The notes beneath the pieces are model-generated. The model was not told the origin of the DNA, made no database searches, and worked only from the letters and a program-made list of their open reading frames with translations. Position numbers and translations under genes: made by a program. From Lepidostoma basale (taxonomy: Eukaryota > Arthropoda > Insecta > Trichoptera > Lepidostomatidae), in contig JAHDVF020000513.1 of NCBI GenBank assembly GCA_022606425.2, forward strand, positions 124,001 to 188,000: a stretch of DNA of 64,000 bases. Reading direction: 5' to 3'. This document shows positions 8,471-42,050 of this stretch, in pieces. Every line of letters begins with the position of its first letter. The first letter of the stretch is position 1.

Positions 8471-8754
8471 TTATAAACAATTGTTGCAAACATCATTTTT
8501 GTGCTCTCCACACACTGTTTTTTCACATTTTATGCACGTCATCTTAGACATTCTTTTCTTTTTTGTGGTACACAAGCCACAATAACGTCGAACTTTAGCC
8601 GGAAGTTCCTCTTCAGAGCCTTCAGAAACCTCTCGATCGTTTTGTGGCAGGATGTTCTTAATATTTTCACGCAAACGTCTTGATAAAGTACGGATTTCTA
8701 ATCTAGATCTCATCCAATGTGTAGATAGTTCAGTGCTTATGGTGTTAAACGATC
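8471..8754 (-). CDS. piggyBac-type cysteine-rich zinc domain, alternative terminal exon
   Basis: Acceptor TTTTTAG, then GA completes the first codon; 94 residues to the stop. The C-terminal half carries C59-x2-C62, C74-x2-C77, C82-x2-H85 and C90-x2-C93, with RRYCGLC, TCIKC and VCGEH. That is the cross-brace cysteine-rich domain closing piggyBac transposases of the Trichoplusia ni type, and the exon stops one residue after the last cysteine, as those proteins do. Residues 1-55 also read like the charged linker before that domain. No DDD catalytic region lies upstream, so this is a captured tail, not a transposon gene. An exon of a wholly lost piggyBac copy is possible. Confidence 0.75.
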
Positions 8755-8889
8755 CTAAAAACAATTAAAATTAAAAAATAACAACAACCTACTTTTATAT
8801 TATATATACCGTGCATAAGTAAAAAGTAACAAAAACATAATCACAATGAAATGCATAAAAGTTACACAAAAGATAAACTATTTTTAGTG

Positions 8890-9235
8890 AGCTTTTTAAG
8901 GAAACTGAGCTGAATGGTTCCGCTCAGCAAAGTGAGCTGACCTTCTTAATAATTAATGGTTCACCATTGAGTCGTTTGTTAAAAATGACACGAGGTAAAA
9001 AAAAAGGGTTGCCGCTGATATTTTTCAAAGTTGGAAAATTGGGGGACGGAAATCGTTGACGACTTTTTTTTTTAGCTCTTTGACTAAAAATTTATCCCGG
9101 TGACTTTTTAGATTTTTTAATCAGAAATTCATTTCTAACAAACGACTCAAAATGGTGAACCATGAATTATTAAAAAGAGTCCAGCTCACTTTGCTGAGCG
9201 GAATCGTTGTTCGGCTCGGATCCCTTAAGTGATTC
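8890..9235. repeat. Foldback (inverted-repeat) element, copy 1
   Basis: About 85-bp arms: 'ttccgctcagcaaagtgagc' near 8918 pairs with its complement near 9183-9205, and 'atggttcaccat' blocks pair inside. It is non-coding and related to 9945-10240. Confidence 0.75.
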
Positions 9236-9337
9236 ATTTTGTCCATCCCTAAGCGGGGTTGACCGACGACTGAGTTGGCTTGGCAACACAAGCTTGCACG
9301 CGCGTCGGTTAGAAAAAGACAGCGATATATTTGTTCC

Positions 9338-9645
9338 GGTTTTTCGATACTTAAATATGGATATAAACGATTGCTTACTTGGGGTTTATTATTGGAACTA
9401 AAAATGAATAACCACTTATGTTATTTTAAACGTTTTATTAAAAAAAATTATAATACATAGTAATTATTAGAAAAGGCTTAAAAATAAAAATAAAATAAAA
9501 ACAAAAAAGGCACAATATGTGTTACATAGAAAAATAGATACAGTTTAATTTCTAAACGTATTGTACAACCAATTTTTGTTCCTAACTAACTATTTAGTAA
9601 TGAAAATATTTAAAGACATGCGCGTTTCAACTATTTAATAATAAC
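9338..9645. repeat. Uninterrupted copy of the repeat split at 6637-7810
   Basis: Serves as the empty-site reference for the LINE insertion: here 'aaaaggcacaatatgtgtta' is continuous. Confidence 0.8.
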
Positions 9646-9835
9646 TATTACTTATATTTCAATTAAGGTTATAACTTTTTCTGTGTTATCAGATATCGTA
9701 AGTTTTTTCTCTTTGATTGAACATGTTAAACAAGTTTTTTACGAGATATTTTCTAACTAAATCAATCTTCAACAAAATCTAACACTTAACTAGTTTAATG
9801 TTGTTTTTTTAAATACTGTTTTGATCAAATATTTT

Positions 9836-9960
9836 TTCATGAGTCCCTAACGGGGGCGGTACCACCCCCAGTGGTCGCTGGAGCTTTACATGGGGGCGGT
9901 AGCGCATTCAGAGGTAAATTGGGAGCGTTGTGACAGTCATACTAGGGATGGGCAAAATGA
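9836..9960. repeat. Non-autonomous repeat with 'gggggcggtaccacccccag'
   Basis: A GC-rich segment, twice carrying GGGGGCGGTA. It resembles the terminal parts of the element at 46650-46935. Probably a hAT-related non-autonomous fragment, weakly supported. Confidence 0.35.
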
Positions 9961-10240
9961 ATCACTTAAGGGATCTGATCTAATCTGATCGACTCAAAAT
10001 GGTGAACCCGTGAATTATAAAAAAAAAGAGTCGGCTAACTTTGCTGATCGGAACCGTTCAGCTCAGATCCCTTAAAGAGCTCACAAAAGAGTCGACTCTT
10101 TTGCGATGATTTACGATTCACCCAGCGGATCATTGAGCTGCCGCTCTTTTTTTTATGAACCATCGCTCACTCGCTCACCAAAGTGAGTCGACTCTTTGAT
10201 TTAACTCGAGAGCGGATCGCACAACCCTAAGTCATACCTT
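9945..10240. repeat. Foldback element, copy 2
   Basis: Starts 'agggatgggcaaaatgaatc' and contains GAGTCGACTC palindromes and alternating GAGTC/GACTC blocks, like 8890-9235. Confidence 0.65.
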
Positions 10241-10544
10241 GGCGTACGTAACTATTCAAGAAATTAGAAGATCCAGAAAAGGTTGGGAACTTATAATTTA
10301 AATAATTACAACATTTTAGAAATCTTAGAAGAAAAAAACACAAAAAAACAACTAGTGAGACTACATCAAGCAACCTTTTACTTTCCTGGCGAAAGCTCTA
10401 ACCACTTAACTATTTCATTTGAAACTAGTTGAGTAAATATTCCAATGCATACATTGTTTCATTATTTGATTGTCTATTTACTGGGTGTTTTTTTTTCGTT
10501 AAATTCACTAGTATTATTAAAAGAAGGGTTGGGGTAATAATAAA

Positions 10545-10970
10545 TTTATAAAGTGATTGGTGCACTTAAAATTGTCATCGTAACAAAGTCTAAAAAAGCT
10601 AAGATGGTGCACATAGGTCATGTATAGAACATTATGTATATACATTTGAGGCATGGATCTGAACTGAAAGTAGAACAACTGCAGTAGAAATAAGATCTCT
10701 TAGAGAAAAATGTAGTAAAACTGTATATGATAGAGATAAAATGATAATTAAGATGGTTTGGACACTTGGATAGAATGCTAAAGAAAGTACCATACATGTC
10801 GTATATGTTAACGATGTAAACGAAACTAGAAATAGAGGAAGACGATAAAAACGGGGCACGATCAAATTAATAAAATATGGCGTGCATGACACGATACGTA
10901 AATGTTGACAAAGCGAGAGCAGTGTGTCAGGAAATAACAATGTGGCGGTACATAATTTTTACCTACTTCT
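10545..10970 (+). mobile_element. Degraded (GTTA)n-type LINE fragment
   Basis: Nucleotide match to 24839-25351 (AVEIRSLR, RWFGHL, YVNDVNETRNRGR pieces) with several frameshifts and stops. Confidence 0.7.
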
Positions 10971-11303
10971 TGGGGGAGACGGTATTAGGAATTATTATTT
11001 TTTTAAATTCAAATTCAAATGTCGGGTGGTGATAGACTGCTTAGCTCCTGATCCAGGGGACCTGGACACTACCAGATTCCTTTTTCATAATAATGTACTA
11101 TTTTCTGCTCATATTGAAGATTGAACAAAAATTAATGTTTGTAGAAAAATAAACCAGTACCAAAAAAAACATTGATTTAAATCCTTGGTGTTAGTCTTAA
11201 AAAAACGATTTTTTTATTAAAACAATTAAATAGTATTAAACTTATAGATAAAAAATAATAAAACACTTTATATTTAACCACGGTATAGTTATTATAATAT
11301 TGA

Positions 11304-11800
<497 letters not shown>

Positions 11801-11994
11801 ATGTGTAGGTTAGCCATAGGATAATAATATTTATTAATATTTATACCTTGTTTCGTCAAAGTATTTGTCCTGATGAAGTAAAGGACTTGGATCTTCTGCC
11901 ATCCAGATATTAAGCTCTAATGGCTATTCCTCCTGCATCTCTCGGAAATGTGATTTGGTGATTGTTTTATATATTATTACAGTACTTCCTTTTT

Positions 11995-12110
11995 TTATAC
12001 CAGACCAAATACAGCGTGACAATCACACTATCATTGCTGGGTATCGAACCCGAGGGTTTCGGTATGGCAGTCAGAGCTCTTACCACTCTCCCACGAAGGT
12101 CATCATAGTT
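11995..12110 (-). mobile_element. tRNA-derived SINE fragment
   Basis: Minus-strand copy of the SINE described at 29735. The A-box-like and B-box segments are still recognisable but mutated. Confidence 0.7.
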
Positions 12111-12220
12111 AGCATATTATGAAATGAAAAAAAAAATCCCTTTCGTTATAAGGATCAAAGTAATAGCAACATAATCTAGAGTACCATAGTTTTTAACAGA
12201 ATACCATCAGTATGGGTAAT

Positions 12221-12432
12221 TTATGAGTATTTATTCCTTCCATGGTTATGCTGCTCGTTCACGTACACGATGGTGTCGTCGATGGTGTGGATTTTAGCCT
12301 TGCAGCCACGACTGTTGTGGGTGGAGCATTTCCAACGTGTCTTATTAGTCGCCAGGTGAGTTATGTGCTTTCCGTAAGTAAAATGGCCGTATTTAATTAA
12401 CTTGGAACCGCATCGCCCGGGAATATATACAG
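12221..12432 (-). CDS. mod(mdg4): FLYWCH-type alternative terminal exon, short form without usual tail
   Basis: Acceptor TTTCAG, then CT + 69 codons + TAA, giving 70 residues with no usable ATG, so start-codon ORF callers miss it. It begins AVYIPGRCGSK. The core has HFTYG (17-21), a single W34 instead of WW, C36, C44 and H62-x-H64. Translation stops six residues after the last His, so the usual K-Y-x-x-T-x-x-G tail is missing. The reading frame is clean, which argues for function, but the lost tryptophan and short tail may mean specialised or decaying function. Confidence 0.75.
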
Positions 12433-12469
12433 CTGAAATGAATTAGAGAGGTTTTTGATGAATGAATTA

Positions 12470-12975
12470 GAGAATCATGTTAGAGAGGGTTCAGAAAAGA
12501 TTTCTGAGATATCTCTACATGAGGGAGTTTGGTAACTATCCGTGGCTTTATCCCACTGCATTCCTCTTGGGCATGCTGGGGACCAATAGTTTACAGATAA
12601 GAAGGGATGGGTGCACACTTACCCATTTCTTCAGACTTATCAGGGGATTCTTTGAGAATTCCGTCATCTTGGAGGCTATCCATCTTTATGTTCCGGATGG
12701 TTATCTTCGACAGCGTCAGCACAGACTGTTTTATCTCCCAACATGCAGAACCAACCTGCCTCTGGTAATGCCAGTGGGGAGAGCAATCAAACTGCTGAAC
12801 ATTATCGCTTCGGAGATCGATGTCTTTCATATTCGTGAAAGTACGTTCAGAAGACAAATACTCTCGACTTTGGAGAGTATCTTGTATTCCTAATGTCGAA
12901 CCATCTCTCATGCGTTCCTGGTATTATATATTTATTATGTTTTACCTGTTCTCAATAGATGCCTTAAACTATTAG
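12470..12975 (+). mobile_element. Jockey-like LINE 3' fragment
   Basis: A 138-codon open frame (12477-12893) starting LERVQKRFLRYLY and ending FRRQILSTLESILYS is the end of a Jockey-type reverse transcriptase ORF. It is 5'-truncated, with the 3' untranslated tail following. The family recurs at 2095, 2850, 6035, 16010, 49255 and, inverted, at 60905-61380. Confidence 0.8.
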
Positions 12976-13204
12976 GTGTATAACTTTGCTTCCGCCATTT
13001 TGCAATAGATGGCAGTAGCGGTAAGTGGTAATTGGAATAAATAGATCTTAGATGTCATACAATAAGCTTAAGTATTTGTAAACATAACGCCATCGAAATA
13101 TTAGTCGATTTGTGTCTGCATCATAAAGTTATTCCCGATTAAACATGTCAGCTTACGAGCCAAATTCTTGTCATTTGCGGGAGGTTTTAATTTAATGCTT
13201 TAAT
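12971..13204 (+). repeat. mariner 5' terminal region
   Basis: 'ttaggtgtataactttgctt' is the likely 5' terminal repeat, about 230 bp before the transposase start. A second copy of the first 100 bp is at 11701. No inverted match is seen just after 14185, so the 3' end is missing or diverged. Confidence 0.55.
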
Positions 13205-14185
13205 ATGAAGAAATCTGCGGCTGAGGCTCATCGAATGCTCTCAAATACCTATGGTGAGGCCGCTATTAGTGAAAGAGCGTGCAGAGAGTGGTTTCAACGC
13301 TTCAAGAACGGTGATTTTAACGTCGAAGACCAGCATGGCGGTGGAAGAGAGAAGGTTTTCGAAGATGCAGAATTGGAGGCATTACTTGAACAAGACTCGT
13401 GTCAAACGCAACAAGAATTGGCAGGATCATTGGGAGTGACGCAACCAGCCATTTCAAAACGCCTGAAAGTCATGGGAATGATTCAGAAACAAGGAAATTG
13501 GGTGCCGTACGAGTTGAAGCCGAGAGATGTTGAACGGCGTTTGTGTGTTTGTGAACAGCTGCTTGCAAGGCAAAGACGGAAGGGATTTCTGCATCGCATT
13601 GTGACTGGGGACGAGAAATGGGTTCATTACGATAATCCCAAGCGCAGAAAATCATGGGGATATCCCGGCCATGCTTCCACGTCGACGGCCAAACCGAATA
13701 TTCACGGTTCCAAGGTTATGCTCAGTATTTGGTGGGACCAGCTCGGCGTAGTGTATTATGAGTTGTTAAAACCGACTGAAACAATCACAGGCGATCGTTA
13801 TCGAACGCAATTAATGCGTTTGAGCCGAGCATTGAAAGACAAACGGCCGCAATACAACGAGAGACATGATAAAGTGATTTTACAGCATGACAATGCTCGA
13901 CCCCATGTTGCGAAAGTGGTCAAGACATACTTGGAAACTTTGAAATGGGAAGTCCTACCCCACCCGCCGTATTCTCCAGACGTTGCTCCCTCGGACTATC
14001 ACTTGTTTCGATCAATGGCACACGGCCTAGCTGACCAGCACTTCCGGTCTTATGAAGAAGTAAAAAATTGGATCGATTCGTGGATCGCTTCAAAAGATGA
14101 CCAGTTTTTTCAACGCGGGATTCGTATGCTGCCCGAAAGATGGGAGAAAGTAGTGGCCAGCGATGGACAATACTTTGAATCATAA
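13205..14185 (+). CDS. mariner (DD34D) transposase, uninterrupted
   Basis: 326-codon open frame without stops or frameshifts. The N-terminal half holds the paired helix-turn-helix region (SERACREWFQRF about 22-33; TQQELAGSLGVTQPAIS about 68-84), followed by WVPYELKP. The catalytic triad is present: TGDEKW, HDNARPH, and the last Asp of YSPDVAPSDYHLF, with 34 residues between the second and third Asp, the hallmark of mariner. The length fits the usual 330-350 residues, slightly short at the N-terminus. It lies in an intron of the array on the opposite strand. The copy looks young, but the absent 3' terminal repeat suggests it may not move. Confidence 0.93.
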   Translation: MKKSAAEAHRMLSNTYGEAAISERACREWFQRFKNGDFNVEDQHGGGREKVFEDAELEALLEQDSCQTQQELAGSLGVTQPAISKRLKVMGMIQKQGNWVPYELKPRDVERRLCVCEQLLARQRRKGFLHRIVTGDEKWVHYDNPKRRKSWGYPGHASTSTAKPNIHGSKVMLSIWWDQLGVVYYELLKPTETITGDRYRTQLMRLSRALKDKRPQYNERHDKVILQHDNARPHVAKVVKTYLETLKWEVLPHPPYSPDVAPSDYHLFRSMAHGLADQHFRSYEEVKNWIDSWIASKDDQFFQRGIRMLPERWEKVVASDGQYFES

Positions 14186-14359
14186 ATTTTTTATTTATTT
14201 TTATTTTTATTTACTAATAAATAATAAGTGCCATATATACATAATTCATAATTTATTATATTACCCTGATGAAACTTGGGTCCAAGCAAAACTTGTTGGC
14301 TTCAATATTATATTAACTATGGTTACCGTGGTTAAATATGAGGTGTTATATTTTTTTTA

Positions 14360-14590
14360 TAATTTTATATTCCAGAAGGTAGAACATCACGAATTTCCAG
14401 ATGGGTGCCTCGCGAAAAGAGACCAAGAGGCAGACCGAGGAAAATATGGGCGGATTGCGTGAAACAAGACTGGGAGAAAATGGAAGGAGCTGGGGAATGG
14501 AGAGAGATAGTCAGAGACAGAAGTCAGTGGAGGACCATTGTGGAAGAGGCCAAGTCCCACACCGGGATGTAGCGCCGAGAAATGAATGAT
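14360..14590 (+). mobile_element. LINE C-terminal fragment
   Basis: Frame 14403-14573 reads VPREKRPRGRPRKIW, ADCVKQDW, then DRSQWRTIVEEAKSHTGM and a stop, a typical LINE ORF2 end. The rest is lost. Confidence 0.75.
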
Positions 14591-14744
14591 TTTTTTATTT
14601 CCCTGATATACCTTGGTTCCAAGCAAAACTAGTTGGCATCAATTATAATAACCATACCGTGGTTAAAAAGTGTTTAATTATTTTATATATAGTTTAAAAT
14701 ATCTCACCACAAAGTGAGTGCTTCATATGAAGATTTAAAGAGTA

Positions 14745-14989
14745 TTATGTTAATTTGATGTAATCTCCCTTCAACGTTTTGAAGTAATATGGCGGTGGAT
14801 GGTTGTGGATTTCGTTAACTTTTAGAAGAGTATTGACGTTGGTGACGGCTGAGGCGGGGCACTGGTACTTGCCCATGGAGGAACAGCGCCACCAACCTTT
14901 CCCGTTGCGAATCCTGGTGGCCAAACAGTACGTGAACCTGTTGACCATCAACAAGCTCTTCTTTCCTCTCAACGATGGAATGAAAGACA
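14745..14989 (-). CDS. mod(mdg4): FLYWCH-type alternative terminal exon
   Basis: Acceptor TTTGCAG, then TG completes a codon; starts VSFIPSLRGKK. The core is SLLMVNRFTY (12-21), NGKGWWRC (29-36), C36, C44 and H62-x-H64, followed by PPPYYFKTLKGDYIKLT and the stop. All ligands are intact. The fourth position after C44 keeps the A-S-A-V-T block. Acceptor, core and tail all match the array consensus, making this one of the most canonical exons. Confidence 0.87.
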
Positions 14990-15220
14990 CTGCAAAGAAA
15001 ATGAAAAAAAAAAACAGTAATATCTATGTTATACAATATACTCAAACATGAAGAATAATATGCTCAAAATACGAAAGAAACTCCGAGTATGTTTGCAAGC
15101 GGAAGCAAACATTGTATTGTAAAACATCATATTTTCATCCACTTGCAAACTGGCATCTGTTATTTATACCTTTATTTTGTAGCTACTACTAATGATTGGG
15201 AAAACAGTGAGTTACATATT

Positions 15221-15547
15221 AAGGATTTTAGTATCTCAATAGAGACGAAGATGTAAATTGTTTTTGGAAACAGAATATGGTGGTCGAGGCGTTTACAGGA
15301 CTTATGACCTGTCATTGGTTGGGTTAAGCGATCGCTTTATGTAATACAACATTCCCCATTTCTCCCTTCTTACGACCACCACGTCTGACAACTTTTTGAA
15401 AGATGTGTATATGCTACTTTGTTGAGAAACACTTCACATTTTTTTGTTCAATCTACACTAGCGCCATCTGTTAAGATATTCTCGACCACCATATTCTGTT
15501 TCCAAAAACAATTTACATCTTCGTGTCTATTGAGATACTAAAATCCT
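15221..15547. repeat. TIR/MITE family A, symmetrical copy
   Basis: Clear terminal inverted repeats about 65 bp long: 'gtatctcaatagagacgaag' near 15231 and its complement near 15520-15540, plus a paired 'aacagaatatggtggtcga' block. This copy shows the family is a palindrome-ended element of about 330 bp. The 'cccgcaatgggtaaaatcca' module follows at 15560. Confidence 0.85.
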
Positions 15548-15639
15548 TAAAATGATTAACCCGCAATGGGTAAAATCCAGTATTTGTCTACAAGTATTAT
15601 ATTTGTATACATTCAAAAACAAAACAGTGAGTTACACAT

Positions 15640-15815
15640 TATTATTCTTCTTAGTGCAGGCCTTGTGGACTGTTTCTTAAGATGAATTGGCCTCCTGTGA
15701 GGTCGACTTCCAGCTGTCGATGGTCTGCCCGGAGGTCGTCTACCTTGGGGTTGGCCGTGTAACACAATGTGGAGTCTGAGTGGATCCATTCTCCTTACAT
15801 GCGCATACCAGTATC
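15640..15815 (-). mobile_element. LINE C-terminal fragment
   Basis: The minus strand reads YWYAHVRRMDPLRL, then GRRPPGRPS, matching the RMD..R-type tail of 666-985 in a diverged form. Confidence 0.6.
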
Positions 15816-15824
15816 TTGTATTTT

Positions 15825-18523: not shown

Positions 18524-18756
18524 TTATATTTTTACGAAATCTCCACCCGCCGTTGTATAGAACTTCTGCGGGTGATGATTGTGACCCTCCGTGTAACTGA
18601 TCAACTTGCCGTGTTTGGTGATAGCTTTGGACTTACACTTGTATTTTGTCTTCGAAGAGCACTGCCACCACCCCCTCTCGTTTTTCATTCTTGTGGATAA
18701 ACCGTATATGTACCCGTCTATCATAAGCAGTTTTCCATTCGCAGATACACAAGCAA
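18524..18756 (-). CDS. mod(mdg4): FLYWCH-type alternative terminal exon
   Basis: Acceptor AATTACAG, then TT; starts VACVSANGKLLMIDGY. The core is LLMIDGYIY (10-18), RGWWQC (28-33), C33, C41 and H59-x-H61, ending HPQKFYTTAGGDFVKI. The N-terminus lacks the I-P-S motif and resembles 29098 (x-V-S-x-N-G-K), as does the Q in the H-x-P-Q tail. It belongs with 23376 and 29098 as a subgroup. Confidence 0.85.
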
Positions 18757-18759
18757 CTG

Positions 18760-19455
18760 TAATTAAATATTTAAATTAAACGTTAACAATGTTCGATTAA
18801 AAACACGTGCCACCCTTTTTAAAAACAGAGAACCAAACATTTATTCAATTTAGAGCGGAGTTTAGAGCACAGAGTTTCAAAAGGTCTGCGTGCTGCTGCT
18901 TCTCAGAAGACGTTCTGAAATCCAATCTCCTGTCCAAAAACAATAAGCTACTTATTTTTTTGTTTAGTTTGCGAGTGGGATGAATGAAAGTCACATATAG
19001 TAAACGTCAGTATTTATTGTAAATGCAGTATACACAATGTTAATTTGAGTTAACGCGGTTTTAGACGTGCGTGCACGTGGACGTCCGAGGCCAAAGTGGG
19101 CGCATAACAGCAGCATAATAGCCTATGTTGTAATGCAGATGACAGTATACATAATATTTATCAATGCGCAGGCGTAACTTGTCGAGAGGCATGGGATTGG
19201 TATTCTCACAAATCTACCGGTTTGAGAATATGTTTCTAAGAGTAATCCTGGGGCCCAGATGAAATGTTGCAGCAGGAACTTGAAGGCATAGTAACAATCA
19301 AGAGATTCGCAAAATGACACAGCAGCCACTTAAATTAAGACCCGGTCGCCTAGAATCGACTGAAATTCCAGAGCAATTCTAGACCCTGTACGCGTCAATA
19401 GCCGGAGTAAGATATCCAGAAGGCCTAGATAGTGTGTAATGCGTAACGTTAATGT
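18760..19455. other. No gene recognised
   Basis: Intron-like. The 68-codon minus-strand frame at 19123-19329 has no recognisable motif, no acceptor in phase and no Cys/His module, so I do not call it. Confidence 0.5.
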
Positions 19456-23375: not shown

Positions 23376-23611
23376 TTAATTCTTAACATAGGCTCCACAA
23401 TCATTTTTAATATATCGTTGTGGTGGGTGATGGTGGGATTCCGATTGGTTAACCAATACGTCATTGACGGTAACGGCTTTGGCTGAACACCTATGTTTTC
23501 CATAGTTGAAGCATCGCCACCATGCTTTTCCATTCCGGTATTTTGTTTTTAAACTGTAGGGGTATTCATTATATATGAGCAGCTGCTTTCCACCCGATAT
23601 TATAAATGAAG
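23376..23611 (-). CDS. mod(mdg4): FLYWCH-type alternative terminal exon with no start codon
   Basis: Acceptor GACTTTCAG, then CT + codons, 78 residues to TAA. Starts ASFIISGGKQLLIYNEY. Core: YPYSLKTKYRNGKAWWRC, C34, C42, and H60-x-H62 within SESHHHPPQ, ending DCGAYVKN. No in-frame ATG precedes the core, so start-based prediction misses it and reports a meaningless overlapping frame instead. It is most like 29098: YPY, WWxCF, AKAVTxN, NQxESHxHxPQ. The two probably arose by exon duplication, now separated by 5.5 kb and two piggyBac-type exons. Confidence 0.85.
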
Positions 23612-23679
23612 CTGAAAGTCAATGAAACATGTAAGTGCTCTTACTATGAATAAAAGTTCTAATTAACAATAATATCGAC

Positions 23680-24406: not shown

Positions 24407-24627
24407 TCAGGTCGATTCATGATATGACTGCTCGTGAAATTCCCTGAAGCATGGTATCAAACAGAGTCCTGGCCGTGCATGACACTGAGGACAAAAGTAA
24501 ATGACGTCTTTTCTTATTCTTTTCCTGTCCCAACAATGTTTGCATCTGCGTCTTTTCGTACTTCCTTTCTTATCTTTTGGGCAATATTCAGGTAAGTGGA
24601 AAATTTGAAGCCCTGTTTGCGTAAACA
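24407..24627 (-). CDS. piggyBac/PGBD-type zinc-ribbon alternative terminal exon, copy 1 of a pair
   Basis: Acceptor ATATTCCAG, then TG; 73 residues: VFTQTGLQIFHLPEYCPK. Ligands are C29-x2-C32, C46-x2-C49 and C56-x3-C60-F-x2-F-H65, in the order RCKHC, YFCPQC, LCLIPCFREFH. This is the C-terminal cysteine module of PGBD/Looper-like piggyBac transposases (RxCxxC..T-YxCxxC..LCxxxCFxxYH). The exon begins only about 25 residues before the first cysteine, so just the module was retained. It shares splice phase with the FLYWCH exons and is flanked by them. Confidence 0.8.
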
Positions 24628-26920: not shown

Positions 26921-27141
26921 TCAAGTTGATTCGCAAAATGACTTCTCGTGAAATTCCCTGAAGCATGGTGTCAAGCAGAGTCCCGGCCGTGCATGACACT
27001 GAGGACAGAAATAAACGACAGATTTTCTTATTTTTTTTCTGTCCCAACAATGTTTACATCTGCGTCTTTTCGCATTTCCTTTGTCATCTTTTGGACAATA
27101 TTCAGGTAAGTGAAACATTTTAGGCCTTGTTTGCGTCAATA
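26921..27141 (-). CDS. piggyBac/PGBD-type zinc-ribbon alternative terminal exon, copy 2 of a pair
   Basis: Acceptor ATATTTCAG, then TA; 73 residues, the same length as 24407. VLTQTRPKMFHLPEYCPK, then RRCKHCWDRKKIRK, YFCPQCHARPGLC, CFREFHEKS. All seven ligands (C29, C32, C46, C49, C56, C60, H65) are conserved. Changes from copy 1 are conservative or outside the module (DKKGSTK vs DDKGNAK, LIP vs LTP), and no stop or frameshift has arisen, which suggests selection on both copies. The duplicated block includes at least the exon, its acceptor and the downstream palindromes. Confidence 0.82.
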
Positions 27142-29097: not shown

Positions 29098-29333
29098 TTA
29101 TATTTTAACATACTCTCCAGAGGGAGTTAAATAGAATTGTTGTGGCTCATGATAGTGACTTTCCGTTTGATTGATCAGATTTTCGTTTAAAGTGACTGCT
29201 TTTGCTTTACACTTATACTTGTTCTTGGAGAAGCACTGCCACCACACTTTGCCGTATTGGTTTTTAGAAGCCATTCCGTATGGATAGTCACCGAGCATCA
29301 GAAGTTGTTTTCCATTCGAGGATACGATTTTAA
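29098..29333 (-). CDS. mod(mdg4): FLYWCH-type alternative terminal exon
   Basis: Acceptor TTGTTTTCAG, then TT; 78 residues starting VKIVSSNGKQLLMLGDYPY. Core: QYGKVWWQCFSKNKYKC, C34, C42, H60-x-H62 (ESHYHEPQ), ending TPSGEYVKI. The frame extends two codons upstream of the splice site (FS), which has no meaning once spliced. Closest relative is 23376. F-P-Y/D-Y-P-Y replaces the usual N-G-Y-T-Y. Confidence 0.86.
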
Positions 29334-29624
29334 CTGAAAACAATAATAAATGTTATTACATTCGAACTCAATTACTACTCGTACGATCACGCAAATAGTG
29401 AGATCTCGGATGCAGCGAGGAAAGATTCATTAAAATTTTAGTTTATGATTTTCTCCATACTTATATTTATTTATTTTTATAACAAGCTAATTCTTTCTTA
29501 TTGTGTATTTTTGTTTGAATTTTAACTAATTGTGTTATGTGACCGCTCGAGATACTTCATGCCTTCATGTGATGGGTGTGTTTGTAAGCATTTAAAAATA
29601 ACTATTATCTTCCCCGTAATAACC

Positions 29625-30910: not shown

Positions 30911-31158
30911 TTATATAGAAGAATTATGAAAAATCTTGAAGCATTTCGTGACGCATAGTGGGGGTTTTGTTTCGCACACTGGACAAAAGTAGCGAGTATC
31001 GCGACGCCTATTTTCTTTCCTGCATACCCGACAATTTCTTCTAGGTCTGCTCGTCTTCCCAGTGATTGGAATGGTGTCCAAATAATGAAATTGCTCCGCG
31101 GCTTTTGGCTTGGACATCTCTTGTGTCATCAGTGGGTCTTCGCACTTTTTTACTTGAC
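30911..31158 (-). CDS. piggyBac/PGBD-type zinc-ribbon alternative terminal exon
   Basis: Acceptor TTTTCTCAAG, then GT; 82 residues: GQVKKCEDPLMTQ, then AEQFHYLDTIPITGKTSRPRRNC. Ligands C43-x2-C46, C59-x2-C62 and C69-x3-C73-F-x2-F-H78. The segment H-Y-L-D-x-I-P-x-x-G-K-x-x-x-P-R-R before the first cysteine is the peptide that precedes this module in piggyBac-like transposases, so more of the ancestral protein is kept than in 24407. Closest relative is 41809. The acceptor AAG is weaker than CAG but occurs identically in 41809. Confidence 0.8.
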
Positions 31159-32415: not shown

Positions 32416-32657
32416 TTAGTTTTTTATTTTAACAAACAATCCACAGGGTGTTTGGAAATATTTTGGCGGGTTGTGGTTGTGTCCTTCCTTGTATGAGAGC
32501 AACACATCTTCAACCGTGCGTGCTGATGCTTTACACTTCTTTCCGCTCCCGGACGAGCACTTCCACCATCCTCTGCCTTGGTTCATCTTGGTGGATAAAC
32601 AGAAAGTGTACTCGTTAATCATCAATCTTCGCCCCGATCTGGTTTCAATGAATGACA
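32416..32657 (-). CDS. mod(mdg4): FLYWCH-type alternative terminal exon
   Basis: Acceptor TTTCTACAG, then TG; 80 residues starting VSFIETRSGRRLMINEY. Core: YTFCLSTKMNQGRGWWKC, C34, C42 and H60-x-H62 (EGHNHNPPKY), ending TPCGLFVKIKN. A potential AATAAA lies about 25 bp past the stop (32394-32389, inside a repeat). Its nearest relative is the next exon upstream, 34927 (GRRLMIN, ST/ATKM, QGxGWW). Confidence 0.87.
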
Positions 32658-33059
32658 CTGTAGAAAGATAATACACATTTGAGATTTTCGTTCAATACAT
32701 TGTATATAAATAGGCTAATATACTTAAGAAATTGAAAATAACTTTGTGTACTCCACAAAATATTTAAAAAAAAATTTAAAACACGACATGTTTCGACATT
32801 TAATCTCCCAAGCTCCCATTCCTAATCAAATGCAAATTAATCATTTAATAATTTCTGTACAAAATATGTCTTTTCAAAAGTGTTTTTTTTTTCTAAATTA
32901 CAATTTTAATTTTTTTTATTTTGTTATCATCATGTATTATTATTATTTAATATTATTTATTAGTATTTACTGGAAAAAAAAAATATTATTAGTACTTATA
33001 ACAAATAGCCCAGGTTAATTTTTAAATTTGAATTATTGTTATTAATATGTATGAAAAAA

Positions 33060-34075: not shown

Positions 34076-34334
34076 CGAATTTCGAATATGGGCAGAAATA
34101 TGAATATATAAAAAAACAAAAAAATATTTGCTGCACATTTTTATTTGTTTCTAAATGAAAAGTATATAAGTATTCAAATGGTTATTGATCATTTAAAATA
34201 AATTAGAAAGCATTTGAAAAAAAGAATATTTTGAAGTTATTAATTCCACACTATTATCAAGGTTGCGGTAATATCATCCAGAGTCCATAGTAATCTATTT
34301 TCGTATCTCACCTCAAGGGCGCTGTGTTCGTAAT

Positions 34335-34870: not shown

Positions 34871-34926
34871 CGCCAGTCGATTCTTATGAAAGTCTAGGTA
34901 TTGTAAATACGTATTATTTTTCGTAA

Positions 34927-35162
34927 TCATATTCTGATAAAGGATCCGGAAATTGTTTTGTAGAAGTTGGGCGGATCGTGGCTATGCACGCCCTTGAAGT
35001 AAAGCAGCTCGTCTTCGTGGGTAACAGCCTTGGCCTGACACTTCCAGTGATTCCATGAGGTGCACCTCCACCAGCCCTTTCCTTGGTGCATTTTCGTGGC
35101 CAAAGTGTAAGTGTATTTGTTAATCATCAGTCTTCTTCCTTTAGACGTTTGGAGAAATAGCA
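34927..35162 (-). CDS. mod(mdg4): FLYWCH-type alternative terminal exon
   Basis: Acceptor GATTCTTCCAG, then TG; 78 residues starting VLFLQTSKGRRLMINKY. Core: YTYTLATKMHQGKGWWRC, C34, C42 (W37 and W40 in the finger loop are unusual) and H60-x-H62 (GVHSHDPPNF), ending TISGSFIRI. Together with 32416 it forms an adjacent pair with the same order of variable residues, a likely tandem duplication 2.3 kb apart. Confidence 0.87.
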
Positions 35163-35214
35163 CTGGAAGAATCAAAATTACAAACCAAGTTATAATTTAC
35201 TCTTAAAAATAAAA

Positions 35215-35415
35215 TTGTTTCAATTTATTTTTCTTCTGGTACTGTGGTTGGCGATTACTGCAGCGAAAACATCTCTGTCTTGCGTTACTTGTAACAGGTT
35301 CTCAATTCTCATCAATTCTGTCCAATCCCTTGTATTCCGCAGCCAGGACAACTGCCTTCTCCCAACTCGCCGCCATCCCTCTTATCTAGTCCGTGTTATC
35401 AGCTGAAGGAGGTGG
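35215..35415 (-). mobile_element. LINE C-terminal fragment
   Basis: Minus strand: ELGEGSCPGCGIQGI-like and LQVTQDRDVF-like remnants, homologous to 39960-40090 and 55630-55840. Confidence 0.6.
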
Positions 35416-35429
35416 TATTTCGTAGTATC

Positions 35430-36290
35430 AATTCAGTAACTAACTAACTAACCATCACGCCGTCTCCCCGAAGGGGTAGGCAGAGAGAATGGACTACCAA
35501 AATTGTTTTTCTCGACTTATTTCTATCGCTTCCTTAACATTCATAGGTACAACGTGTCATGCACGCGCGTCGATTTCTCTGACTCCTCACATGGCCGATA
35601 TTCAATATTTGATTTATTTGATAGTGCCACGTTTTCCTCGGTCTTCCTCTATTTCTGGTTCCATTTACATCGTCAACATACAATTTTTTTTACCATTCTT
35701 TCTTCATTCATTCTTTCCATATGTCCAAACCATCTTAATGATCCTTTCATTATTTTGTTCATAACACCATCATTCGCACCGCATTCACTTCTTATATTTT
35801 CATTCGACACTCTATCTTACACAGAGTATCTACACATTCGTCTAAGAGATCTCATTTCTACTGCATTTATTCTACTTCCATCCTTCTTGTACCAGTCCCA
35901 TGGTTCGCTTCCATACATAAGAGTCGGTAGAAGAACACTATTGTGCACTGTCATTCTAGCTTTTTTGGATATGTTTTTGTTTGCGATGACAACTTTAAGT
36001 TCACCGTTCACTTTGTTGCCTGCCCCAACCCTTTTTTCAATATCCCTCTCCACTCGCCCATATTTTGTATACATACTACCTAAATACACGAACTCATCTA
36101 CTTGCTCCAAATTTTCACCATTCACGCTAATGTTGCAGACTGTCATGATTTCTTATTTTTCAAAAATCATTACCTTGGACTTATTAACATTCATCATCAG
36201 ATCATTTCGCATGCATACCTCATACATACTATTCACCGGGACTTGTAATTCATGCTCGTTGTCTGCAAGTAAGACAGACTAAACTCAGTT
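35430..36290 (-). mobile_element. (GTTA)n-tailed LINE, longest copy
   Basis: About 860 bp of RT C-terminal half: minus-strand NVNKSKVMIFEK (near 36170), SVNGENLEQVDEFVYLGSMY, PTLMYGSEPW, RSLRRMCRYSV, then the RWFGHMERMNEE region and tail. One or two stops. 5'-truncated. Confidence 0.85.
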
Positions 36291-36439
36291 ATTTTTAAAT
36301 ATTCATTTGATGCATAAGCTATCGGACAAATTACTGGCAGAAAATATTAAATATTACATAGACTACTTAAACGTGTTCTTTACGGTGAGGTATTCGGTAA
36401 ACACAATAGAAATAACGTCTCAAGAATTGATTATGATCC

Positions 36440-37165
36440 CGTTCGCATTGCCCGCGAGGTGTGAAGTACGCTCCGTGATTCGTTTTTTATGTGCCAAAGG
36501 CCTTCGGAAATTCATTCTCAACTGACAGAAGTGTATGGAGAAACGTGCATGAGTGTTCAAATGGTGCGCAAGTGGTGCAAAGAATTCAAAGAAGGGCGCA
36601 CAGACCTCCATGACGAACAGCGGTCCGGACGGCCATCGGTCAGTGACGAAACGATTGCGAAAGTGGAAGCGGCAATGCTGGCAGATCGAAGACTGACGGT
36701 TCGGGAGCTTAGCAAGATGATCCCAGATGTCAGCAAGACAACTATAGACAAGATCCTAACAGAACATTTAGGTTATTCTAAGGTTTGTGCAAGGTGGGTG
36801 CACAGGATGCTTACGGAGGACCACAAACGACGCTCATTGAGAAATTCGGATGGGAGATCGTCCTACACCCACAATACAGTCCGAACTTGACCCCGAGGGA
36901 CTACCATATTTTCCCTGATTTGAAGAAACATCTCGGTGGAACGCATTTTGCAAACGAAGAGAAGAGGTTCTGAGCTACCTTCATGACTTCGAGACTTCTA
37001 CGACCAGGGAATCAAAAATATGGTGACCCGGATGAAAAAGTGCATCGAAGTCAACGGGGAATATAGAAAAATAGCTGAAAGTCCAAGCTTTCCAATGATG
37101 TATTGCTCGTTGTAAATAAAAATGGTTTTCATATTGAAAAAAAATAGGAAAACTTATTTTGCGGA
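36440..37165 (+). pseudogene. mariner transposase, internally deleted
   Basis: A clean N-terminus (EVYGETCMSVQMVRKWCKEF, GRPSVSD, helix-turn-helix to about 36790) jumps after WVHRMLTEDHKRRS to the region around the third catalytic Asp (HPQYSPNLTPRDYHIF near 36880). The first two catalytic Asp are gone. A different mariner lineage from 13205. The end 'tattttgcggacaaccctcg' near 37158-37177 may be its 3' terminal repeat. Confidence 0.85.
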
Positions 37166-37244
37166 CAACCCTCGTAATATAAGCGGAGAATGATTTTTGG
37201 ATTTGGACAATTTGTTAGAAATTCAACAAAGTATCGAATCTTAG

Positions 37245-37590
37245 GCAAGACCACATAAAATTAAAAAGGATTTAATTAGTAGGTACTAAGGAGCTGGTTT
37301 TTGTCCCAAGAACCGAGAAGTAAAGTAAGTATTCCAAATATTCCAATATGTTTTTATTGCACATGAAAGTTTGAAAAACAGCGGATGCACAAGCCGACAT
37401 TGCACTTTTTACACATCGTAATGACGACCGACTTACAACCTGGACCGGCACATCGGCGTCTCTTCCCCGTTGTGACTAAATGGTTCGTCTGATCGAACTG
37501 TACACTTGGAGGCACTCTAAAACGTTTTCTTCTCGGAGAGAATACATCTGTAAAAGATAAAGAATAAGTAATATTGATAAAACCCTACTC
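37245..37590. repeat. Duplicated block containing exon 37354
   Basis: About 340 bp from 'aagaccacataaaattaaaa' to 'aatattgataaaacccta', repeated at 38833-39182 in the same orientation with few differences. It covers the exon, its acceptor and about 110 bp of 3' flank. Confidence 0.92.
37354..37547 (-). CDS. Short piggyBac-type zinc-ribbon alternative terminal exon, copy 1
   Basis: Acceptor CTTTTACAG, then AT; 64 residues starting DVFSPRRKRFRVPPSVQ. Ligands C33-x4-C38, C46-x2-C49 and C54-x2-C57-F-x2-F-H62 (RRRCAGPGC, MCKKC, LCIRCFSNFH). The C-x4-C and C-x2-C-F spacings differ from the other PGBD-like exons, so this is a separate lineage of the same fold. The CFxxFH end followed at once by the stop still matches piggyBac-type tails. 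The basic N-terminal stretch may help DNA binding. Other small zinc ribbons cannot be excluded. Confidence 0.7.
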
Positions 37591-37614
37591 CCTGGCCCTG
37601 ATATTCATGTGCAA

Positions 37615-38100
37615 TAAGCCCTGGTGTCTAGTATGTATGAGGTAAGCAAGCAATACGATTTGATGATGAATGTGAAAAAGTCCAAGGTTATGATTTTCGA
37701 AAAAGAAGGAAGCATAACAGTCTGCAACATTAGTGTAAACGGTGAAAATCTGGAACAAGTGGATTTTGAATATTTAGGAAGTATGTTTACAAAGACGAAC
37801 GACGAAGACGGAACGCATGGATGGAGAAAGAATGGTTAAGAAAGTATACATTAATGATGTAAACGGGGTACAGAGTCGAAGCTGACCGAGGAAAACATGG
37901 CATGACCAAATTAATAAAATTTTAAAGGTTGGTCATGTTAGAAGTCGGAGGAATCGACGTGCGTGTATGACTCGTTGTATGAATGTGGAGGAAGCTAGAG
38001 AGGTTTGCCAGAATAGAGTAGTGTGGCGGACCATTCTCTCTGCCTACCCCTGCGGGGAAACGGGGTGATGGTTTGTTTGTTTGTTTTTGTTTATGTTTAC
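37615..38100 (+). mobile_element. (GTTT)n-tailed LINE fragment, internally deleted
   Basis: MNVKKSKVMIFEKEGSITVC and GENLEQVDFEYLGSMF, then a jump near 37795 to the GRNGxERMVKK-like and NVEEAREVC tail, ending with 'gatggtttgtttg' at 38090. Deletion derivative. Confidence 0.8.
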
Positions 38101-38395
38101 AAAGGATAGGAGGGTGGAGAAGGATATTGAAAGAAGGGTTGCGGCAGGCAACAGGGTAAATGGTGCACTTAAAACTGTCATCGCAAACAAAAGCATATCC
38201 AAAAAAGCTAAGATGGCAGTGTATAATGGTGTTCTTGTGCCCACCCTTTTGTATCGAAGTGAAGCATGGAACTGGCAAAAGAAGGATGAAAGTAGAATAA
38301 ATGCAGTAGAAATGAGATCTCTAAGACGAATGTGTGACAAATCTGTATATCGCACCGTGAGTGTAAAACCAAGATAAGTGCTAATATAAATTTTA
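38097..38395 (+). mobile_element. LINE RT fragment joined to the previous tail
   Basis: Frame 38081-38377 reads GALKTVIANKSISKKAKMAVYNG and PTLLYRSEAWNW, ending at RRMCDKSVY, then stops. Confidence 0.75.
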
Positions 38396-38453
38396 AAGAT
38401 ATGGGAGTTTAAAGACTTCATATTGCTAGGAAAAGCTGTTTTTTTTTAAATAA

Positions 38454-38504
38454 ACCAATGATTTTCGGTTTATAGTAATATACCTATAAACCGCAAATCA
38501 TTGG
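38454..38504. repeat. Near-perfect hairpin inside a LINE fragment
   Basis: 21-bp arms ('ccaatgattttcggtttata' + g) with one mismatch around an 8-nt AT loop. It sits between two LINE pieces. Confidence 0.85.
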
Positions 38505-38805
38505 TTAAAGGGTCAATAAGATGGTTTGGGTACATGGAAAGAATGAGTGAAAACAGAATGGTAAAGAATGTATATGTAAACGGCATGAACGAAGCTAGAA
38601 ATAGAGGAAGGTCGAGGAAAACGTGGCACGATCAAATCAATCAAATATTGAATGTCGATCACCTGAGGAGTCTGAGAAATCGACGTGTGTGCATGACGTA
38701 GAATGTAGAGGAAGCGAGAGACGTATGTCAGGACAGAACAGTGTGTCGTTCATTCTTTCTGCCTACGCCTCCGGGGAGACGGCGTGATGGTTAGTTAGTT
38801 TAGTT
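38505..38805 (+). mobile_element. (GTTA)n-tailed LINE 3' end
   Basis: RWFGYMERMSENRMVKNVY, NEARNRGRSRKTWHDQ, then the 3' end with 'ggttagttagtttagttagt'. Confidence 0.8.
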
Positions 38806-38832
38806 AGTTCAACATAGTAATTAAAAATAGTC

Positions 38833-39182
38833 ATTACAAGACCACATTAAATTAAAAAGGATTTAATTAGTAGATACTAAGGAGCTGGTTTTTGTCCCAA
38901 GAACCGAGAAGTAAAGTAAGTATTCCAAATATTCCAATATATTTTTATTCCACATGAAAGTTTGAAAAACAGCGGATGCACAAGCCTACATTGCACTTTT
39001 GGCACATCGTAATGACGATCGACTTACAACCTGGTGCGGCACATCGGCGTCTCTTCCCCGTTGTGACTAAATGGTTCGTCTGATCGAACTGTACACTTGG
39101 AGGCACTCTAAAACGTTTTCTTCTCGGAGAGAATACATCTGTAAAATATAAAGAATAAGTAATATTGATAAAACCCTATACC
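38833..39182. repeat. Second copy of the 37245 block
   Basis: Duplicate in direct orientation. The two copies are separated by LINE insertions. Confidence 0.92.
38945..39138 (-). CDS. Short piggyBac-type zinc-ribbon alternative terminal exon, copy 2
   Basis: Same 64-residue frame, acceptor and phase as 37354. The N-terminal 34 residues are identical. Differences are CAAPGC for CAGPGC, KSIV for KSVV, MCQKC for MCKKC, and the final residue E for Q. All ligands are retained (C33, C38, C46, C49, C54, C57, H62). The few changes sit mostly in the presumed DNA-contacting finger, which fits diversification after a recent duplication; this is inference from four substitutions only. Confidence 0.72.
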
Positions 39183-39189
39183 ATTGATT

Positions 39190-39695
39190 TACAACCTTTT
39201 CTTTACCACTGCCTCCTTTCTTCTTCTTCTTCAGCTTATCGCCGTCCACTCTTGGACGAAAGGCTCCTCCATGTCCCATGTTGATCTTTCCTGCGCAGTC
39301 TGCATCCATAGCACCCCAGCGTATCGTTTCAGGTCACCCCTCCACCTCATTTGTGGTCTTGCTACTCTTCTTCTCGTGTCTCTCGGTCTCCAATTCAGCA
39401 GTATTTTGGTCCATCTTTCGTCTGCAGTTCTAGCGACATGCTCTGCCCATTTCCATTTTAAACTCGTCACCCGGTGGATCACGTCTGTGACTCTTGTTTT
39501 ATCCCTCACCGATTCGTTCCTGACCCTATCCCTAAGGACGGGCCCAGCATGGCTCTCCCCATCGCTCGCTGCATGACTCTTAGTCTCTCTGCACTGTGCT
39601 TTGTCAGAGTGGCAGTTTCAAGACCATATATACTTACTGGCAGAACACAAGCTTCATATACTTTCCTCTTCAAGTTGATAGGTGTTTTTTTTATT
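39190..39695 (-). mobile_element. RTE-like LINE C-terminal fragment
   Basis: The minus-strand frame 39231-39509 reads TDVIHRVTSLKWKWAEHVAR, then RRVARPQMRWRGDLKRY and EEPFVQEWT. Upstream to 39690 the RT thumb region is broken. A well-preserved RTE-type tail. Confidence 0.85.
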
Positions 39696-39799
39696 TTTTA
39701 ATACGTATCCTTTACAATATTAAAATTTCCAATGAACACATTGCTATTAATAGAATAGTGATACCAAATATTCAAATATGATTATACATTTTCTATGTC

Positions 39800-40110
39800 T
39801 ATAATATTCAGGGTCAGTAAAGCAGACGTACTACAGAGATCCAGAGCCAATAGAGAGATGTTGTCGAGTGTGAAAATTAGAAAGATCTCATATTTGGGCC
39901 ATGTGCTAAGGGGAGAAAAATACCACCTCCTTCGACTAATATTAATAGGTAATGTGGAGGGACGTCGGGGAGTTGGTAGAAGGCATCTGTCCTGGCTGCG
40001 GAGCATTAAATATTGGACAGGAATTACAAGACTTCAGAACCTGTTCCAAGTGGCGCAGAACAGAGATGCCTTTGCTGCAGTGATCGCCAACGTTGGGGGG
40101 ACCTGACACG
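39800..40110 (+). mobile_element. LINE C-terminal fragment
   Basis: Open frame 39795-40106: KISYLGHVLRGEKYHLLRLI, GRRGVGRRHLSWLR, AAVIANVGGT. Same tail family as 35215 and 55630 (inverted). Confidence 0.8.
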
Positions 40111-40199
40111 ACACCGAAAGAATTTGTCTAAAATATTTGTAATAAAAAAGCTGATGTCAAATGATCAGAAATGTTTAAATTTAAATAGTTTATTGAATT

Positions 40200-40590
40200 G
40201 TTAGCTAACTAACTAACTAACCATCACGTTGTCTCCGAAGGGGTAGACAGGAAGATCGGACTGCCACACATTTCTTTCCTGACATACTTCTCTCGCTTCC
40301 TCAACATTCATATGTTGTGTCTTGCATGCGCATCAATTTCTCCGATTCATCACGTGGCCGACATTCAATATTTGATTTATTTGATCGTGCCACGTTTTCC
40401 TCGGACTTCCTCTATTCCTAGTTCCATTTACATCGAGAACATATACTTTTTAACCATTCTTTCTTCAATCGTTCTTTCCATGTGTCCAAACCATCTTAAT
40501 GATTTTTTTCATTATTCACTTCTTGTAGTTTCATTCAACAAAGATTTTCCGCACATTCGTCCAAGAGATCTGATCTTCATCGCCATTTTA
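40200..40590 (-). mobile_element. (GTTA)n-tailed LINE 3' end
   Basis: Starts with the tail 'taactaactaactaaccatc' and then minus-strand coding back to the GKS-R..RPRG region. Frames broken. Confidence 0.78.
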
Positions 40591-40720
40591 TAGTAACGTG
40601 AATTCTACACCAAACCAAAGAGAATGTGACAATCACACTGCCATCGCCGGGAATCGAATCCGGGTTCTTCGATGTGCCCGTCATAGCACTTACCACTCGA
40701 CCACGAAGGTCGTCGATATG
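40590..40720 (-). mobile_element. tRNA-derived SINE
   Basis: Minus-strand copy with B-box 'ggttcgattcc' read as its complement 'gggaatcgaatcc' near 40652, and the head to 40715. Confidence 0.8.
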
Positions 40721-40734
40721 CTACAATAAGCATA

Positions 40735-40885
40735 TGCTATTGGAAAGCAAAGGTAGATTCTACAAAACGTGCTTTGGGCCCATAATGATTTGCGTAATGA
40801 AAGCAAGAGCAGACACTTTCAGAACTAAACATCTAAGAACAGCAGAAATGAAAACATTGCGACCTATTGTGGGTAAAATGTATTT
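40735..40885 (+). mobile_element. LINE fragment
   Basis: LLESKGRFYKTCFGPIMIC and FRTKHLRTAEMKTLRPIVG, homologous to 51805-51950. Confidence 0.7.
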
Positions 40886-41034
40886 TATCCAAATTTTATT
40901 ATTGCCAAACATGAAATAAAACTACAATTAACAATTATGTATTTATTTTTCTAACATTTTTAAAAGTAATTTATAATGATTAAAACGAGTGAAAACATCT
41001 GTTTTCTAGAAGTTTTATAGTATTTTATGGGAAG

Positions 41035-41160
41035 GATATGTACGAGTATCGCCTTGCTGAGGTGTTATTAAACCATAGCAAGGCGAAACTTGTCATTCCC
41101 ATAAAATATGATAAAACTTTAAGAAACAGACGATTTTTACATCATTTTTCAAGATGCAAT
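41035..41160. repeat. Repeat family C copy
   Basis: 'agcaaggcgaaacttgtcat' centre with 'aaaatatgataaaacttt'. Confidence 0.6.
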
Positions 41161-41344
41161 TCATAATGCTTATTTGATTTTTTTTAAACGTATATATTCA
41201 AATACGAGTATATTGAAATACAAAGATATTATTAAACCCGCGTGTTTAAGCCTTTCAATCCCAGCAATCAATGGTTAAAATGAGCTATATATCCCAAACA
41301 TTTTTTTTTTAAAAAAAACGACAGTAATTTATACTATATATAAT

Positions 41345-41510
41345 ATATATTTTTAGCTAACCGTCATGACGTCTACCCGAAGGGTGAGGCAGTAAAAATG
41401 GACCGCCACACTTAAAACATGCGACACTCCATCCTTCACTTTTCGCTCCAGCGGGAGACGCGGTGTTATGGGTTGCGAACCTCATCGCCACCAATAGACA
41501 TCAGTAAATA
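41345..41510 (-). mobile_element. LINE 3' tail plus adjoining repeat
   Basis: Same pairing of LINE end and 'gcgacactccatccttcact' segment as at 3645-3850. Confidence 0.6.
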
Positions 41511-41703
41511 TATATTGTACAATAGTTTTAATATTTTGTTATGAATATCTACATAATAAACATTGTAACAAAGCAATTTTATTTAAATTCATTCAAAAAT
41601 AGTGGTAATGAAGTACAATTAACGTGAAGTTGCCTTTGCCTCGTCTTTTAACTATGAGTGTATTCATAAAATAATAAAATCATAATAACTTCTATGAAAC
41701 AAT

Positions 41704-41722
41704 GGGGTCAATTGGCGACCCC
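41704..41722. repeat. Palindrome GGGGTC-7-GACCCC downstream of exon 41809
   Basis: Perfect 6-bp arms with an AATTGGC spacer, 86 bp past the exon stop. Followed by more G/C-rich halves (41750-41780). Confidence 0.55.
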
Positions 41723-41808
41723 TTGGGATTTGTGCATGTACCAGTTGGGGGCTGACGTTTGGCCCGTTGAAATTTAAATGGTTAAAGAACAAATAACATG
41801 ATTATTAA

Positions 41809-42050
41809 TTAAGCCGAAGCATTATGAAAGAACTTAAAGCACCCTGTGACGCACAGTGCGGGTTTGGTTTCGCAAACTGGACAAAAATAGCGGCTTAGAC
41901 GACGCATCTTTTTCGTCTTAATGCAGACCCGGCATGATCTTCTAGGCTTGTTTGTCTTCCCCGAGGGCGGAATGGGGTCCAAGTAATGAAATTTTTTGGC
42001 ATTTTGCAGTTCGCTTTTATCGTTCAGCGGATCTTCGTTCTTAAAACATC
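41809..42050 (-). CDS. piggyBac/PGBD-type zinc-ribbon alternative terminal exon
   Basis: Acceptor TTTACTCAAG, then GA; 80 residues: GCFKNEDPLNDKSELQ, then AKKFHYLDPIPPSGKTNKPRRSC. Ligands C40-x2-C43, C57-x2-C60 and C67-x3-C71-F-x2-F-H76. The minus-strand frame upstream of the acceptor is open for 19 more codons and looks hydrophobic, but this is intron with a pyrimidine tract, not a signal peptide. It pairs with 30911 by the AAG acceptor, E-D-P-L start and KPRRxCRVC. 11 kb separates the pair, so the duplication or double capture is old. Confidence 0.8.

Follow-up and report, generated by a model that had tools for sequence, protein, structure and literature searches.

In the mod(mdg4) trans-splicing loci of Diptera and Lepidoptera, a large set of alternative terminal exons, FLYWCH-encoding for the most part, can each be joined to a BTB donor (PMC4667647). 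According to the same source, several species have such exons on both strands, the loci span hundreds of kilobases (550 kb in the monarch), the acceptor combinations number 9 to 41 in six insects, and isoforms without FLYWCH occur in silkworm, diamondback moth, and monarch. It is the tail of Mod(mdg4) that determines with which partner and where the protein works, Su(Hw) being an example (PMC5666082); HeT-A, a retrotransposon, is repressed by particular fly Mod(mdg4) variants (PMC9723646), and the FLYWCH tails are said to be Mutator-derived (PMC10027918). A further precedent is the primate CSB-PGBD3 fusion, where a chromatin gene uses a piggyBac as an alternative 3′ terminal exon, reached through a splice acceptor; piggyBac elements are described there as able to act as 3′ exon traps (PMC2268245). 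At its C terminus the piggyBac transposase has a cysteine-rich DNA-binding domain (CRD), which binds as a dimer to a palindromic repeat of 19 bp within the end of the transposon (PMC7351741). Here we describe a 64-kb stretch of the trichopteran Lepidostoma basale (the window), which covers positions 124001-188000 of the 483-kb contig JAHDVF020000513.1 (C1122). The window appears to belong to a mod(mdg4)-like locus of very large size, where a common BTB part would be joined to one of many terminal exons. Most of these encode FLYWCH zinc fingers, and a second class encodes the CRD, though not the catalytic core, of piggyBac-like transposases. Judging from the DNA, we think it probable that transposase DNA-binding domains have been captured recurrently and are used as alternative 3′ exons of this locus; the CRDs would have come several times, from different piggyBac lineages, to lie behind a phase 1 acceptor, to be partly duplicated, and to be retained by purifying selection.

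The minus strand of the window carries 12 FLYWCH exons that pass PF04500 (12 of 12 scanned) and seven cysteine-rich exons (Table 1). A preliminary description made from the letters of the stretch had noted seven piggyBac-type cysteine-rich exons with clean frames amid FLYWCH exons, and this observation is confirmed: all seven are present on the minus strand, each is open up to its stop, and the stops lie at the start positions given in that description, by which the exons are named here. The 41809 exon extends to 42050, as set by its acceptor (codon count). In every one of the seven, an AG acceptor is followed by two nucleotides that complete a codon and thus give a phase 1 intron. Strand, phase, and terminal position are indeed common to the CRD and FLYWCH exons.

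Table 1. Predicted terminal exons and associated features (window positions; in the last row, positions on C1122)
Feature	Position	Strand	Remarks
CRD-type terminal exon	8471..8754	-	aligns to 6x67 residues 508-593; acceptor AG ends 8755; stop 8471-8473
piggyBac-type 3′ terminal repeat with TTAA	7826..7845	+	~0.64 kb beyond stop of 8471 exon
CRD-type terminal exon	24407..24627	-	PF13842 30.9 bits; phase 1 acceptor
CRD-type terminal exon	26921..27141	-	PF13842 32.6 bits; paralogue of 24407
CRD-type terminal exon	30911..31158	-	PF13842 31.7 bits; close to 41809
Divergent CRD-type terminal exon	37354..37547	-	member of near-identical pair with 38945
Divergent CRD-type terminal exon	38945..39138	-	member of near-identical pair with 37354
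CRD-type terminal exon	41809..42050	-	PF13842 33.8 bits; piggyBat transposase 9c0f weak match, E 0.01
FLYWCH terminal exon (open frame)	1751..2011	-	PF04500 48.4 bits
FLYWCH terminal exon (open frame)	14745..15023	-	PF04500 36.3 bits
FLYWCH terminal exon (open frame)	18524..18775	-	PF04500 47.1 bits
FLYWCH terminal exon (open frame)	23376..23618	-	PF04500 45.9 bits
FLYWCH terminal exon (open frame)	29098..29352	-	PF04500 40.7 bits
FLYWCH terminal exon (open frame)	32416..32691	-	PF04500 35.4 bits
FLYWCH terminal exon (open frame)	34927..35196	-	PF04500 43.9 bits
FLYWCH terminal exon (open frame)	45991..46350	-	PF04500 42.8 bits
FLYWCH terminal exon (open frame)	48908..49159	-	PF04500 54.1 bits
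FLYWCH terminal exon (open frame)	54614..54859	-	PF04500 32.1 bits
FLYWCH terminal exon (open frame)	60163..60420	-	PF04500 41.7 bits
FLYWCH terminal exon (open frame)	63323..63604	-	PF04500 42.9 bits
CRD tails outside the window, C1122	27397+, 30175+, 79079+, 86426-, 107659-, 119589-, 221232-, 246491-, 468493+		

The piggyBac identity of the tails is direct in five of the seven exons, by PF13842 or by phmmer, and is tentative, by profile only, in the other two. The profile search proposed in the preliminary description bore out four exons (24407, 26921, 30911, and 41809), which pass PF13842 (zf-Tnp_2) at its cut-off of 24 bits. The 8471 exon has no PF13842 match; in a phmmer search it aligned gap-free with residues 508-593 of the PDB chain 6x67_C, labelled Transposase (E 3.5e-17), and also matched 5lme, labelled piggyBac transposase (E 1.3e-5). 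Over 89 residues it shares 82% identity with P0001, a 599-residue protein that carries the piggyBac catalytic domain PF13843. The remaining two, 37354 and 38945, sit in a 342-bp stretch duplicated at 96.8%. Our first tail profile was trained on window exons, and the test for this group was a leave-out profile that omits the two exons as well as 107550/119500; it found 37354/38945 at E 0.002, the best reversed-frame match being E 0.14. Aligned with the other tails, the group reaches an hhalign probability of 89% (pairwise E 2.3e-6), and it is related (39.5% over 43 residues) to 221232, which passes PF13842 narrowly (24.6 versus 24 bits). The AlphaFold model of 37354 had a mean pLDDT of 37 and was not used, profile A2 gave only chance matches in the PDB, and the 41809 exon alone as a protein query returned no candidate.

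Beyond the window, C1122 holds nine further exon-like CRD tails, which brings the array to at least 16. PF13842 was passed by six of the eight tails scanned there (27397, 30175, 86426, 468493, 221232, and 79079) and not by 246491 and 107550; the 27397/30175 tails are 66-67%, and the 468493 tail 58-68%, identical to PF13843-carrying proteins. Three candidates recognized by eye only (85286-, 210397-, and 466733+) are kept outside this count: none passes a Pfam cut-off, PF13842 included, the leave-out profile gives them E 0.35, 0.15, and 0.032, respectively (best reversed frame, 0.14), 210397 has no good phase 1 acceptor, and the best acceptor of 466733 is in phase 0. Three more pieces on C1122 (92487, 118092, and 224880) were set aside as decayed or repeated, relic-like copies. 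In the whole assembly (769 Mb, 1572 contigs), eight of the 126 PF13842 matches listed lie on C1122, where 0.08 were expected (150 of 400 candidates scored; duplicates are not independent). Among the dispersed PF13842 matches are some with the profile span 4-59 (e.g., C712:1343266, C1521:1303260, and C1163:2230039), several in 97-residue open frames, which could possibly be a CRD-only repeat family. Another match, on C694 near 564612-564755 (L002), ends a 239-residue open frame with acidic motifs (PF13842, 39.5 bits) and is a possible fusion of a host protein with a piggyBac CRD.

The catalytic core was sought by tblastn with 11 transposase queries, some partial (L003 and part of L007 from this genome, P0001 to P0009 from the protein collection), in 339,283 bases of C1122 (4001-318000 and 458001-483283). 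Significant matches there came only via the last ~125 residues of the queries, the best core-side E being 0.17, and among the PF13843 (DDE_Tnp_1_7 core) matches listed (116 of 617 candidates scored genome-wide) none lies on C1122 or C211. The claim that the tails have no transposase catalytic part is supported for these bases, and, no core having been found, such a tail would be a binder without cutting.

The CRD tails share their setting with a large FLYWCH array. In the 339 kb of C1122 covered, profiles built from the window exons picked up 69 FLYWCH-like open frames. When AG acceptors are ranked by a score of our own making, the top one is in phase 1 in 63 of these 69 and in 13 of 15 CRD-like frames (8471 left out, the relic-like 92487 and 224880 included); at 79079 the top-scoring AG is in phase 0 and the second in phase 1. 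Genome-wide, 150 FLYWCH matches were scored of 355 candidates (C1306, 72; C1122, 36; C211, 31; C430, 7; C1151, 2; C36, 1; C565, 1), 139 of them on the three contigs C1306, C1122, and C211, and this total of scored matches exceeds the 9 to 41 acceptor combinations of the six insects (PMC4667647). On C1122 the FLYWCH matches lie on the plus strand at 862-76783, on the minus strand from 78324 to 268602 and at 442932, and on the plus strand again from 461084 to 482394, so that the array switches strand near 77 kb and between ~450 and 461 kb, as in trans-spliced loci.

A tree of the 16 array CRDs with 12 others (P0001 to P0008, L001, L002, L003, and L007; no core was seen in L001 or L002), built on a short alignment and poorly settled in its deep branches, places 8471 with P0001 to P0003 (support, 100), 27397/30175 with P0004 and L007 (96 and 89), and 246491/468493 with P0005 to P0008 (90). 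Because these three groups of tails cluster with different sets of transposases, at least three captures are suggested. The tail pairs look constrained by purifying selection: the ratio of nonsynonymous to synonymous substitution (dN/dS) is below 0.4 in six of six pairs, with one-sided Fisher p below 0.05 in five, that is, 24407/26921 (0.35, p 0.008), 30911/41809 (0.26, p 5e-6), 27397/30175 (0.15, p 7e-8), 246491/468493 (0.16 with dS saturated, p 6e-6), and 107550/119500 (0.33, p 0.03).

Several points weigh against the capture of these domains as tails of a BTB gene, and three alternatives were considered. According to the first, which we regard as unlikely, the CRD pieces are dead piggyBac relics, truncated 3′ ends that by chance sit unspliced within introns of a tail-exon array. 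PiggyBac is abundant in this genome (118 PF13843 matches listed), and the decayed or repeated look of 92487, 118092, and 224880 is what relics would show. At 8471, a piggyBac-type 3′ end with TTAA follows ~0.64 kb downstream of the stop (the repeat at 7826..7845, which resembles the canonical piggyBac end), so this exon may itself be a relic of a truncated insertion. At 468493, the transposase similarity begins ~45 residues ahead of the exon, upstream of the acceptor, as in a less trimmed insertion. This tail is joined to 246491 with a support of 66 only; the two may be separate captures, in which case their low dN/dS may reflect selection on transposons. Two further points count against the capture reading itself. 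The dN/dS of 37354/38945 (0.39, one-sided Fisher p 0.21) is not significant, and of the three DNA-recognition residues named for the piggyBac CRD (PMC7351741), the tyrosine is kept in 8471 and the other two differ. The residues of 8471 at these positions are the same in its transposon relative P0001, which fits recognition of the ends of its own lineage's transposons. The chain 6x67 is presumably the protein of the study that named these residues, and its residue letters agree with those given there. Against unspliced relics stand at least 16 CRD pieces without any significant catalytic match in the 339,283 bases compared, an acceptor phase mostly common to them, and the low dN/dS of similar tails. 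The 8471 exon derives from a 5′-truncated insertion, since the 3′ end with TTAA lies downstream, no similar piggyBac 5′ end was found within 10 kb upstream, and the acceptor sits ~14 nt upstream of the first transposase-like codon.

Slightly less probable still is that each CRD exon ends a small gene of its own, or some other fusion of host and transposase, outside a BTB gene. The candidate fusion on C694, with its acidic part and CRD end, shows what such a gene could look like, and none of the 69 BTB matches in the genome lies on C1122; nor was a BTB exon found within the 64-kb window. In a search of the protein collection that reaches close relatives only, no protein joins BTB to a CRD, and nine of nine matches carry PF13843. 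Six joined FLYWCH exons gave 2028 candidates in the protein collection and none at E 1e-5, so the mod(mdg4) assignment follows from architecture, without a named homologue. The splice junctions from BTB to the CRD tails, and the BTB partner, are predictions from the DNA. Against separate genes stand CRD and FLYWCH exons that are alike in acceptor phase and position on both strands of the contig, and BTB, CRD, and FLYWCH matches that lie close together on C211 and C565. On C211, a BTB match (1127847-1128128, plus strand) is ~9 kb from the nearest listed FLYWCH match (1137314-), and a CRD match (1141936-) lies between FLYWCH matches at 1140301- and 1144501-. On C565, two BTB matches (652743- and 650964-), a CRD match (644363-), and a FLYWCH match (630792-) follow one another on one strand within ~22 kb. 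These two arrangements are the strongest positional indication of a BTB gene that has tails of both types. The link between C211 and C1122 is putative and not assembled, and the two may be haplotypes of one locus.

That the tails are ancient zinc-ribbon or RING-like domains merely resembling piggyBac CRDs is very improbable. In its favor, 37354/38945 give weak scores with IBR and B-box models and pass no Pfam cut-off, PF13842 included, and their identification is weak; for 8471, 27397/30175, and 468493, the idea is contradicted by their identity to PF13843-carrying proteins.

The capture of CRDs as alternative 3′ exons is the explanation that we favor, and the preliminary interpretation, supported in part, is likely right in outline: its piggyBac identity, strand, phase, and terminal position stand, as does the lack of a significant core match in the bases compared, and its proposals that BTB exons are spliced to these tails and that chromatin factors are recruited to transposon ends stay inferences. 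Splicing to a CRD exon would yield a protein that multimerizes through BTB, that the CRD may aim at transposon-end repeats or at host sites derived from them, and that could bring insulator or repressor partners to the bound sites. We speculate, with considerable doubt, that the array is a heritable library of anti-transposon tails and a record of past piggyBac invasions, in which a truncated copy of each invading lineage, inserted into the array, donates its end-binding domain as a BTB tail that insulates or silences the ends of that lineage. The tail of Mod(mdg4) determines the sites to which this chromatin insulator protein is directed. If such tails come repeatedly from transposons, simply by a truncated insertion and a phase 1 acceptor, the locus would be a natural means of generating new chromatin proteins that are sequence-specific, and would allow one to test directly if transposase domains, once captured, are retained for defence.

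Other features of the window include a partial thirteenth FLYWCH exon near 12242-12334, a 329-residue open frame at 13196-14185 (plus strand) that by eye has the look of a mariner-type transposase, a pogo/Tigger-like piece at 51165-51683 (minus strand) whose open frame has HTH_Tnp_Tc5 and CENP-B_N above cut-off, and a long simple repeat at 11177-11840 that reads YIYIYI in several frames. A scan with Rfam gave a single match, to a tRNA family, and tblastn with phage proteins a single chance match.

What is likely new here, as far as the DNA itself can tell, is a second, repeatedly captured class of transposase tails within a known type of locus, the mod(mdg4)-like array of tail exons; among the papers listed in literature searches, no title or abstract opening described piggyBac CRD tails in mod(mdg4). 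Like the mod(mdg4) loci reported in PMC4667647, this one has FLYWCH terminal exons on both strands and extends over hundreds of kilobases, but it adds an exon class from piggyBac CRDs and is much richer in FLYWCH exons (150 matches scored among 355 candidates). With the FLYWCH tails as presented in PMC10027918, the CRDs share the use of a transposase-derived zinc-binding domain as a tail, whereas they come from a different superfamily, were captured repeatedly, and in one piece still have a piggyBac-type end. The 8471 tail aligns without gaps to residues 508-593 of 6x67, and yet, unlike in the piggyBac transposases 6x67 and 5lme, no catalytic core was found with the tails here. Finally, CSB-PGBD3 as described in PMC2268245 likewise has a piggyBac-derived alternative 3′ terminal exon behind a splice acceptor, splicing being predicted in our case; there, however, a transposase was taken up by one gene, whereas here an exon array appears to have acquired the CRD alone, on many occasions and from several lineages.

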